From a virus: DNA of 20,708 bases. The stretch lies in IMG/VR virus record IMGVR_UViG_3300048672_001760, positions 1-20,708 of that record; one strand, 5' to 3'. Position 1 is the stretch's first letter, and every line of letters starts with the position of its first letter. The notes below the pieces were generated by a model. That model saw nothing but the letters and a program-made list of their open reading frames with translations. It searched no databases and was not told the origin of the DNA. Below are positions 16,964 to 20,708 of this stretch, piece after piece. The position numbers and the translations under genes are program-made.

Positions 16964-18418
16964 TTAGTAATCGTAATCAAAAGAGTTCATCCACGTCTCT
17001 ACCTCTACGATTTCAGGGTAGATCTGGCTAGATTTTTTAGGGTATGTTGGTTTGAAATTTACTTTCGAAAGTGCCACCATCATTTCATTGAATCGCTTCA
17101 ATGGATTGTCACCGAGGTGGCTGAAAATTACAGCGTAATATTGCTGTAAGCCCAATAGGTCTAAGTTATGTACCTCAACTCTAGGCTTATGACCTAATGC
17201 AAGCTTTTGAAAATCTCCTTTTGCTTGAGACAAAAGGTGCTCAACCTTGCGAGCTTTGAACTCTTTAGGGTTTGTCAAATTGCTACGAACCTTCTTGCCT
17301 TCAGCTTCTTCAGCTTTCAACCAAGCCTCTAGGCCTGCAAAGCCTCGTTTGTTGTCTTTGTCAAAGTATCCACGACCAGCCACTGCTATGCTATGCGGGT
17401 CTGGAAGATAGGCGTCTGGGTGGTATGAGTAATATTTTGCTGCTCTGTCGATCTTGTCAGTCTGGCGCTTAAGGAACTGCGCCAGCTCTTTTTCGGTGCG
17501 GATGTATCGGCAATTGTGGAAAACATCTGTCCAGATCAGTCTGAGAATCGTTTTCACTGTTGCTTTGTCATATTTTCTGCCCGAATATAGCTTCATGTAG
17601 GCATATCCCCAGAATTGCATGGTGGCTTGGCGACACTTTTCCGTCCATTCGTCGTATTGTTTCTCACCGTTTTCTGCGTTATCCACGCCCTGTTGTGGAT
17701 AACTTTCGGCGCCCGCCCCCTTGGTGTGTTTCTCTCCGTTTTGCGTCTCCTGTGCCAAATTAGCTTGTTTAGGGGCATCCGTAGGGGCTATTTGTTTATC
17801 CCTCTGTCCCTTTGGTTCATTCTCTCCGTCACTTTTCAACTTATTCAGTCCGCTTATAATTTCTTTTTCAGAACTCTTTCTGTAAGTATTAATATGCGGA
17901 AAAAGATTCCCGTTAGTGGTAGAGGCGCCAAGTGGGCAAATTTGCAAATCTGGCTGATCGAATCTCTCTGCGATTGTCTGACCCCACAAAAAAGAGGCGT
18001 TAAAGGTTATTCCTATGCCCTTATTTCGACCTTTGTTGGTCTTGCTAAGTACCCCCATGTTTGCCAATATAGACAGCATAGAACGCACTGTACGGTCGCT
18101 ACAGCCCGCACTATGCCCAATACTTGGGTTGCTGGTTAACAATTCAGGTAGGTTACTCTCTGTACTATACGTACCGAATTTTGTAGAGGCTACCATCTTG
18201 TTATAGTAGTCGACGTACCAGTTTAGGCACGTGTTGAAAACACGCTCCAATTTGGTACGCTCCAGCTCACGCGGGCGCATCAAGTACTCAAGCTCTCTAA
18301 TAGTTCCATCAGGCTGTTTGATTTTTCTGGTATATGATTGGTGCTCGGTCTTTGCGTCGGCATCCATCATCATATTCCAAAATTTCTTACGCAGTTCTGG
18401 TTTCTCTATTCGTTTCAT
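16964..18418 (-). CDS. Winged-helix replication-initiation-like protein
   Basis: 484 residues. The N-terminal 80 residues are helical and basic. Residues about 97-140 form a winged helix-turn-helix (SIGHSAGCSDRTVRSMLSIL, then MGVLSKTNKG and a wing). A low-complexity polar linker spans about 185-260. The C-terminal half is helical, with a KLYSGRKYDKATVKTILRL segment and many Lys/Arg/Tyr residues. This layout (wHTH, linker, helical C-terminal domain) resembles replisome-organiser or replication-initiator proteins of Bacteroidota phages and mobile elements. It opens the middle operon, 73 nt below the tRNA. No helicase or primase motif is present. It could instead be a transcription regulator. 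Confidence 0.55.
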   Translation of the reverse strand: MKRIEKPELRKKFWNMMMDADAKTEHQSYTRKIKQPDGTIRELEYLMRPRELERTKLERVFNTCLNWYVDYYNKMVASTKFGTYSTESNLPELLTSNPSIGHSAGCSDRTVRSMLSILANMGVLSKTNKGRNKGIGITFNASFLWGQTIAERFDQPDLQICPLGASTTNGNLFPHINTYRKSSEKEIISGLNKLKSDGENEPKGQRDKQIAPTDAPKQANLAQETQNGEKHTKGAGAESYPQQGVDNAENGEKQYDEWTEKCRQATMQFWGYAYMKLYSGRKYDKATVKTILRLIWTDVFHNCRYIRTEKELAQFLKRQTDKIDRAAKYYSYHPDAYLPDPHSIAVAGRGYFDKDNKRGFAGLEAWLKAEEAEGKKVRSNLTNPKEFKARKVEHLLSQAKGDFQKLALGHKPRVEVHNLDLLGLQQYYAVIFSHLGDNPLKRFNEMMVALSKVNFKPTYPKKSSQIYPEIVEVETWMNSFDYDY

Positions 18419-18491
18419 AGGTTTGGTAATTTTTTGATTTGGGCTACTAAGGCATTACCCTTTTCGCCCTGCAAGCTATTTGCTTACCCTG

Positions 18492-18570
18492 TGGAGATAA
18501 CAGGAATCGAACCTGTGCAAAATTGACCTAGCTTTTCAGTCTAGCGCTCTACCTGCTGAGCTATATCTCC
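18492..18570 (-). tRNA. tRNA-like gene, anticodon GAA (Phe), with unusual variable region
   Basis: Folds as a full cloverleaf on the minus strand: acceptor GGAGATA / TATCTCC (7 bp), D arm GCTC-AGCAGGTA-GAGC, anticodon loop CTGAAAA (T33, anticodon GAA) and T arm ACAGG-TTCGATT-CCTGT, with A73 as discriminator and no encoded CCA. Two oddities stand out. The anticodon stem CTAGA / GCTAG has an A-G mismatch next to the loop. The variable region is 11 nt (GTCAATTTTGC) instead of the usual 4-5 of a Phe tRNA, and could form a tiny 3-bp arm (CAA/TTG). By anticodon it is tRNA-Phe; its true amino-acid identity is open. Confidence 0.85.
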
Positions 18571-19018: not shown

Positions 19019-19270
19019 TCATGATTGCTCCCTTGGAGAAATTACAGTGGATGCTAGTAACTTGAGCACTTCTTCTTCTCCACCATCTTCGAACCCAATA
19101 CTATCAATATGCTCTGGTACTTGGCTATTTTTATCACACCTGATAATAATGTAAGATTTGCTTGGGTCTTGAGGAATAATTATGTTCTCAATATGTTCTG
19201 GTATTTGGCTATTTTTATCACACCTGATAATAATGTTGCTTGTGTCTTGAGGTATAATTATGTTCTCCAT
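19019..19270 (-). CDS. Small protein made of a tandem duplication
   Basis: 83 residues. Residues 2-27 (ENIIIPQDTS, then NIIIRCDKNSQIPEHI) are repeated at 28-55 (ENIIIPQDPSKSY, then IIIRCDKNSQVPEHI) with only a 2-residue insertion and three or so changes. An acidic segment follows (GFEDGGEEEVLKLL), then a polar tail. One Cys per repeat could bind metal or form a disulfide. No family recognised. The ATG of copy 1 matches an ATT codon in copy 2, so the present start may have arisen with the duplication. It lies 6 nt after the 137-residue gene. Confidence 0.55.
   Translation of the reverse strand: MENIIIPQDTSNIIIRCDKNSQIPEHIENIIIPQDPSKSYIIIRCDKNSQVPEHIDSIGFEDGGEEEVLKLLASTVISPREQS
19106..19267. 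repeat. Tandem coding repeat, 78 and 84 bp
   Basis: Two adjacent units (19190-19267 and 19106-19189), nearly identical in DNA. For example TTGGCTATTTTTATCACACC and CTGATAATAATGT occur in both. They encode the duplicated halves of the 83-residue protein. Confidence 0.85.
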
Positions 19271-19276
19271 TGTAAA

Positions 19277-19690
19277 TTAAGAAGGTTCAAAGCCATTTTT
19301 TCTTTTTAAGTAGGACTCCATAGACTGATGAATTTGATCAATTTCACCTGCCAGCTGACGTATGTGTTGACTGTAGGTATTCAAATTACCATTTACGGAC
19401 CTTATAAAAAATCCAGAATCTTTTATGGATCTATGGTAACGATACAATTGACCAAGTGTACCCTTCAGGATTATTTCTATTTTCTCATCCTCAGGCAGGT
19501 GCAACCATTTCCCATCAGGTGCATGATACCAATCTTGAACACTGTCTATATTATGGGCTAATACAAGGTAATCCAAATAAACATTAGCATTAACCATAAT
19601 TGATTGTGGGTCTTTATCTGGATTGGTTTCAATCAACTTAAAAACAATCTCCTTTAAAAGCTCACTTCGCTGTTCTTCGCTGTATTCCAT
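19277..19690 (-). CDS. Hypothetical early protein
   Basis: 137 residues, unrecognised. It is mostly helical: EQRSELLKEIVFKLIETNPD at the start, ANVYLDYLVLAHNIDSVQDW in the middle and a coiled-coil-like end (HIRQLAGEIDQIHQSMESYL). There is no signal or membrane span. The ATG at 19690 follows a 127-bp spacer with a hairpin (19718-19741) and begins a three-gene minus-strand run with the repeat protein and the SH3-like protein. It is likely an early phage protein. Confidence 0.55.
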   Translation of the reverse strand: MEYSEEQRSELLKEIVFKLIETNPDKDPQSIMVNANVYLDYLVLAHNIDSVQDWYHAPDGKWLHLPEDEKIEIILKGTLGQLYRYHRSIKDSGFFIRSVNGNLNTYSQHIRQLAGEIDQIHQSMESYLKRKNGFEPS

Positions 19691-20175: not shown

Positions 20176-20371
20176 TAGATTCTCCTAGTTTTAGTTCCGT
20201 AAACATAAAATCAAGCTCTTCGTCAGAAAACTTGCTTCTGATGCCATTCATCTTATAATCAAATGACCTAACATCTAGGCAAAATTTCTTTTGGAAAGCA
20301 TTTCTTATACGAGTTTTGTCCTTACGGGCTTTTTTCTTATAAGCTGATTTTATTATTACATCCTTTGTCAT
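20153..20371 (-). CDS. Cro-like small DNA-binding protein (putative)
   Basis: 72 residues. A basic N terminus (KSAYKKKARKDKTRIRNAF) leads into QKKFCLDVRSFDYKMNG and then SKFSDEELDFMFTEL. This follows the pattern seen in small Bacteroidota phage HTH proteins ('xFxxxFxLxxxSFxxKxNGxxxxSxxExxxI'), where SFDYKMNG would hold the recognition helix. It is the first gene of the leftward early operon and faces the Xre-type repressor across an operator-like spacer, the place of Cro in lambda-like switches. The HTH reading is an inference; no family name is certain. Confidence 0.5.
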   Translation of the reverse strand: MTKDVIIKSAYKKKARKDKTRIRNAFQKKFCLDVRSFDYKMNGIRSKFSDEELDFMFTELKLGESNGVQEES

Positions 20372-20415
20372 ATCCGCTCATCAAATTAAATGACGAAAAA
20401 TTTGAACAAAAAGCC

Positions 20416-20459
20416 ATTTCGTTGTAATTTCGTTTATTGTTCGTTAGTATTTCGCTGTT
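20416..20459. promoter_or_regulatory. Four 11-bp direct repeats (operator or iteron array)
   Basis: Four consecutive 11-mers: ATTTCGTTGTA, ATTTCGTTTAT, TGTTCGTTAGT and ATTTCGCTGTT. The core TTCGTT (TTCGCT in the last) starts at 20418, 20429, 20440 and 20451, exactly one helical turn apart. They lie just downstream of the candidate leftward promoter and 45 bp before the ATG at 20371. This is where a repressor or Cro operator would sit; replication iterons are the alternative. Confidence 0.6.
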
Positions 20460-20466
20460 TGTGATA

Positions 20467-20497
20467 CAAAGATTATTATTTATTACAGTATTAGCAA
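20467..20497 (-). promoter_or_regulatory. Candidate leftward early promoter
   Basis: On the minus strand, TTG (20497-20495) is followed after 19 nt by TAATCTTTG (20475-20467). This is close to the Bacteroidota TTG / TAnnTTTG promoter, with one extra base in the -7 element. Transcription would start near 20460, directly at the edge of the repeat array, so a bound repressor would block it. Confidence 0.4.
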
Positions 20498-20607
20498 GCA
20501 TAAAATTGTAATTTTTTAAAGTTTTTTGATGATTGATAGTTATATTATTTTTAAATAATTGATAATCAGTAGATTATGAATGTTTATTTTTTAATATTTT
20601 AAAAAAA

Positions 20608-20634
20608 TACAATTTTTCGAATCTTTAAATTGTA
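20608..20634. promoter_or_regulatory. Inverted repeat before the repressor gene
   Basis: TACAATTT (20608-20615) and AAATTGTA (20627-20634) form a perfect 8-bp inverted repeat with an 11-bp spacer, 13 bp ahead of the repressor ATG. A third copy, AAATTGTA, is at 20503-20510. It suits a dimeric HTH regulator, possibly autoregulation by the repressor. The flanking 150 bp are very AT-rich. Confidence 0.45.
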
Positions 20635-20647
20635 AAAAATAGTCATT

Positions 20648-20708
20648 ATGGAAAATTTCAATAAAAGGCTCAAAGAAGCTTTGAAAAAGAAAGGTATAAG
20701 TCAAAAAT
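20648..20708 (+). CDS. Xre-family HTH repressor, N-terminal part only
   Basis: The first 20 residues, MENFNKRLKEALKKKGISQK, have the helix 1 to helix 2 pattern of Xre/cI-type regulators (F-xx-RL-xx-AL-xxx-GISQ-x-LA). The gene is cut by the window end. It is divergent from the Cro-like operon, and this head-to-head layout with an operator array between them is typical of a temperate phage immunity region. Whether a LexA-like peptidase domain follows cannot be seen. Confidence 0.65.
   Translation, partial: MENFNKRLKEALKKKGISQK

Follow-up and report, generated by a model that had tools for sequence, protein, structure and literature searches.

The Apl protein of phage 186 recognizes seven direct repeats spaced by 10-11 bp and located between pR and pL; it binds them as monomers, weakly at a single site and with strong cooperativity, and represses both promoters (PMC7498355). 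The C repressor of phage P2 binds a direct-repeat operator, O1/O2, with a centre-to-centre distance of 22 bp (PMC4752584). In Streptomyces, the BldC regulator binds at smeA-sffA to four tracts placed one helical turn apart, on which four small monomers are arranged head-to-tail (PMC5859096). Here we describe a set of direct repeats found in the 20,708-base virus record IMGVR_UViG_3300048672_001760 of IMG/VR, the whole of which was analysed and is referred to below as the window. The repeats lie near its right end, in the spacer between two divergent transcription units.

Gene layout around the divergent spacer

The spacer separates a leftward early operon from the start of an Xre-type regulator gene carried by the plus strand. 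The features of this region are as follows:

20372-20647: divergent spacer, between the leftward operon and the plus-strand Xre-type start
20416-20459, unstranded: four 11-bp direct repeats in exact 11-bp phase, the best phased array of the window and the proposed operator
20500-20640, unstranded: AT-rich half of the spacer, delimited by composition (88% A+T)
20648-20708, plus strand: start of the Xre-type regulator gene, recognized by PHROG matches and truncated by the end of the contig, which leaves 20 residues
20153-20371, minus strand: 72-aa ORF that opens the leftward operon and that, from its position, is proposed to encode a small regulator
19277-19690, minus strand: 137-aa ORF of the leftward operon
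16964-18418: O-like replication (initiator) gene of the leftward operon

In the leftward operon the 72-aa ORF is followed by a 61-aa ORF, the 137-aa ORF, further small ORFs and the O-like replication protein, and the structural genes are found to the left of this early operon. A tRNA-Phe (GAA) gene is located within the operon (18491-18570, minus strand), and a stretch of about 80 bp is duplicated almost perfectly at 19104-19270, inside an 83-aa ORF (19019-19270, minus strand). The integrase gene and the att site lie outside the present contig fragment. An Xre repressor had been proposed on the plus strand in the initial annotation; this assignment rests on the first 20 residues of the protein, which weakly match transcriptional-regulator PHROGs (best E 0.003). 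The AT-rich half of the spacer, which had also been pointed out, was borne out by its composition, and the rightward promoter presumably lies within it (20500-20640).

The 72-aa protein had been labelled Cro-like. No relative of this protein was found in IMG/VR, in about 51,000 phage records or in a 395-genome sample of one phylum, no family matched it at any threshold, and any similarity to Apl or Cox was below detection. With no relative or family detected, the Cro-like label finds no support in the sequence. A single-sequence AlphaFold model of the protein was helical but of low confidence (pLDDT 64.5), and too poor to use.

The terminase of the window is nearest to those of Bacteroidota phages (Flavobacterium, Cellulophaga, Polaribacter, Bacteroides, Porphyromonas), its best reference being a phage deposited under Microcystis with 34% identity. 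Because the host assignment is based on terminase similarity at this level of identity to the best reference, it is one that we infer: the host probably belongs to the Bacteroidota.

Four direct repeats in exact 11-bp phase

The motif TTCG occurs in the spacer at 20418, 20429, 20440 and 20451, in steps of exactly 11 bp, and the corresponding 11-mers read, in register, ATTTCGTTGTA, ATTTCGTTTAT, TGTTCGTTAGT and ATTTCGCTGTT. Four TTCGTT cores had been reported at this spacing; the spacing and the TTCG are indeed common to the four units, but TTCGTT is present in three of them, the fourth having TTCGCT. The repeated 11-mers are direct and non-palindromic and no inverted repeat pair is found inside the array, which agrees with the earlier remark that the repeats are unlike the dyad operators of lambda. 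Tandem Repeats Finder detected the array both with a period of 11 (score 40) and with a period of 22 (score 53). No second array of the same repeats was found anywhere in the window.

The statistical standing of the array was assessed on shuffled sequences. The pattern TTCG(N7TTCG)x3 has a single match in the window and had none in 100 shuffles. Four occurrences of a C+G-containing 4-mer at one period were seen in 0 of 2000 dinucleotide shuffles of the spacer, a criterion that was picked after the array had been seen. When repeats were scored with a weight for composition, the array ranked first among the four-unit phased repeats of the window with periods of 9-13; 3 of 200 shuffles of the whole window, and none of 2000 shuffles of the spacer, attained its score. 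Simply counting identical columns gave no significance, 7.5% of the shuffles matching the array, and the significance is therefore carried by the C and G positions. Though short, the array is real; judged against the whole window, it is modestly significant.

For comparison with other switch regions, a profile of Xre-type proteins was built from the loci at hand, and yielded 64 divergent spacers between an Xre gene and an ORF, the window included. In this convenience sample, drawn from loci collected for other purposes, the window spacer ranked first with a four-unit score of 30.7, a value that none of 300 shuffles reached; the second-best spacer scored 19.1. These figures bear on the possibility that the four copies arose by chance in an AT-rich spacer and that the true operators are other, shorter dyads, such as TTTGTGATACAAA at 20459-20471. 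An accident would be compatible with the whole-window shuffles that reach the score, with the non-significant column count and with the inverted repeats that several comparison spacers, including that of the closest relative, have instead of an array. However, the score was never reached in the spacer shuffles and the spacer is an outlier among the 64 Xre-gene spacers, while dyads as long as the proposed one (13 bp) would, by our own estimate, be expected to turn up by chance in DNA this rich in A+T. We consider an accidental array rather unlikely.

It is ordinary for phages that are otherwise related to exchange switch modules. The nearest relative of the window, IMGVR_UViG_2890102224_000003, has a terminase that is 79-80% identical and structural genes that are 64-70% identical as DNA, but its early region is different and so is its switch, which is of the dyad type, with inverted repeats around AATACTTG. 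The switch of the Microcystis-phage relative has inverted repeats too, and four other distant relatives had no four-unit phased array in their switch spacers. The switch spacer of Flavobacterium phage 1H (L363, 38109-38152) contains a long inverted repeat, TATCATTTAGTAAAACTTTTT ... AAAAGTTTTACTAAATGATA. The spacer that precedes an HTH regulator in Cellulophaga phage Ingeline_1 (L362, 14788-14903) holds the tandem 11-bp repeats TACCAAACAAT and TACCAAACAAA together with an inverted copy, TTTGGTA, and may possibly represent a two-unit version of a phased operator.

Relatives were sought more widely. None was found in IMG/VR for the O-like gene or the 137-aa gene (19277-19690), and a terminase pattern search of GTDB contigs gave no confirmed match. 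One distant prophage was recognized by its terminase (29% identity) in the 395-genome sample of one phylum, and no switch was identified in its flanks. A search of IMG/VR and GTDB contigs for three AACGAA motifs spaced by 11 bp retrieved no comparable switch context among the matches listed.

Candidate promoters and replication origins

The primary promoter of Bacteroidota consists of a -7 element, TAnnTTTG, and a TTTG near -33 (PMC7366714). Two candidates for the promoter of the leftward operon were retained in the spacer, one on either side of the array:

20467-20499, minus strand: candidate early promoter 1, TTG-N19-TAATCTTTG, with one mismatch to TTG-N17-23-TAnnTTTG
20382-20409, minus strand: candidate early promoter 2, TTTG-N17-TTAATTTG, with one mismatch and of a quality equal to that of promoter 1

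A TTG-N19 promoter had been proposed next to the repeats. Such a sequence is present on the minus strand, from 20497 to 20467. Its box is not TAnnTTTG: it reads either as TA-N3-TTTG, with one inserted base, or as AATCTTTG, with one mismatch, and the match is at chance level. Because about 1.15 matches this good are expected per spacer by chance, neither candidate is significant; six such matches occur in 20300-20708 when both strands are counted. The start site of promoter 1 would be followed immediately by the repeats, and the -33 element of promoter 2 would be directly preceded by them.

With promoter 1 in use, the early transcript would carry all four repeats in its 5' leader, ahead of the start codon and in their AACGAA-type form. 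The repeats might then work at the RNA level, either by attracting an RNA-binding protein or by forming an attenuator. Folding of this leader was no better than that of shuffled sequences (z -0.40), no Rfam family matched it, and it is not evident what an exact 11-bp phase would mean in a single-stranded RNA. The one full match to Rfam was the tRNA at 18491-18570. An RNA element in the leader, which we hold to be very improbable, was rejected on the folding and Rfam results.

As a fallback, the initial annotation had considered the repeats as replication iterons, with the AT-rich half (20500-20640) as a possible unwinding element; in this reading the O-like initiator (16964-18418) would bind the array. 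At least 119 stretches with four phased TTCG motifs were retrieved from IMG/VR. Among the matches listed, the phased TTCG/CGAA arrays were inside ORFs of at least 80 aa in 97 of 119 cases; for the 79 ORFs of 150-360 aa, also among the matches listed, CGAA was on the coding strand in 69, with a median relative position of 0.47. Ten array-bearing ORFs were sampled: seven clearly matched replication-initiation, primosomal or DnaD-like helicase-loader PHROGs, and the three others matched related or unnamed PHROG families. Mid-gene CGAA arrays were seen in the IMG/VR loci L017, L022, L035, L039, L074, L089, L099, L103, L108 and L113 and in many of the loci L002-L120. The array-bearing genes of initiator type are DnaD-like, O-like, DUF1376 or Lin1244, and a low-complexity tract often adjoins the array. 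The mid-gene CGAA arrays of such genes are probable in-gene replication origins. Since 11-bp-phased arrays with the same CGAA core are common inside phage initiator genes, phasing alone is not diagnostic and cannot separate an operator from an origin, and iterons stay a real rival.

Binding of the array by the initiator would also fit with the O-like gene of the window, which is without a phased array of its own, and with the 88% A+T stretch of the spacer. However, the array is intergenic instead of being in the middle of an initiator gene, it is located about 2 kb from the O-like gene, and its AT-rich part is on the opposite side compared to the low-complexity tract of the in-gene arrays that were read. 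No DnaA box was found in the spacer. The linker of the O-like gene (17660-17840) is a better origin candidate: it contains facing DnaA-box cores, TTATCCAC, at 17679 and 17695, as well as three copies of ACGG(A/T)GAGAA, whose ends are at 17670, 17739 and 17829. This linker is likelier than the spacer to be the replication origin of the phage. The iteron fallback is more credible than first put in that phased CGAA arrays mark phage initiator genes, and less so in that the window has a better origin candidate than the spacer; overall, we regard it as unlikely.

The proposed operator and its relation to known systems

The array sits between the Xre-type start and a divergent early operon of small genes that leads to the O-like gene. 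Because it is real, lies between divergent genes and is exceptional among the 64 spacers, a helix-phased direct-repeat switch is the best supported reading. From the first description of this switch, the array and its place between the Xre-type start and the divergent early operon have stood, whereas no support was obtained for the Cro-like label, the promoter match and the presence of TTCGTT in all four units. Direct repeats one turn apart suit monomers bound head-to-tail, an arrangement documented for Apl and BldC, and we therefore take the array as the operator of the leftward operon. The operator role, the bound protein and the direction of regulation are those that we infer from geometry and position. 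On balance, the spacer probably controls the lysogeny switch of a temperate phage, with the four 11-bp direct repeats as an operator to which a small early regulator, or else the repressor, would bind cooperatively in a head-to-tail row.

In such an operator, the monomers of a small DNA-binding protein would stack head-to-tail on the repeats, along one face of the helix and cooperatively. The bound array would shut off or tune the leftward early operon, whose promoter would abut or overlap the array. The likeliest occupant would be the product of the first early gene, the 72-aa protein, acting like Apl of phage 186. The Xre repressor would be the second choice, possibly bound as dimers to 22-bp pairs as the P2 C repressor is. 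It seems quite unlikely that the array reflects an independent origin of the filament-type switch operator in a phage of Bacteroidota, with a new small early regulator unrelated to Apl, Cox or Xis forming a filament on phased repeats at the start of its own transcript. The switch interpretation is plausible though unproven, and other phages already provide examples of the binding mode that would be involved. If the array is an operator, the direct-repeat, head-to-tail lysogeny switch known from P2-like coliphages would extend to Bacteroidota phages, and an orphan early protein would gain a function.

The array shares features with each of the systems considered. Like the in-gene arrays of O-like and DnaD-like initiators, it combines a CGAA core, exact 11-bp steps and four or more copies; those arrays, however, are found mid-ORF with CGAA on the coding strand, whereas that of the window is intergenic with the AT-rich tract on the other side. 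BldC operators likewise have four regularly spaced sites one turn apart, but BldC is a MerR-like developmental regulator of the host, the core of its sites is AATT and not TTCG, and no phage switch is involved. The P2 C operator, too, belongs to a phage switch and is built of direct repeats, not of dyads, and its 22 bp are twice the period of the window array; it differs in having two sites only, which flank a -10 element and are bound by a dimer. The Apl operators of phage 186, to which the Cox sites of P2-like phages are related, resemble the array by their multiple direct repeats at about one turn (10-11 bp), located in the lysis-lysogeny region beside the first early gene. Operators of this type go with a small (winged) HTH protein of the Apl/Cox/Xis kind encoded by the phage, the 72-aa ORF of the window being in the corresponding position, and with cooperative binding of monomers, bending of the DNA and repression of both promoters. 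In 186 seven sites lie between face-to-face promoters and a second array is present at att, whereas in the window four sites lie between divergent genes and att is outside. Since the Apl sites of 186 are direct repeats at 10-11 bp, being unlike the lambda operators does not make the array new.
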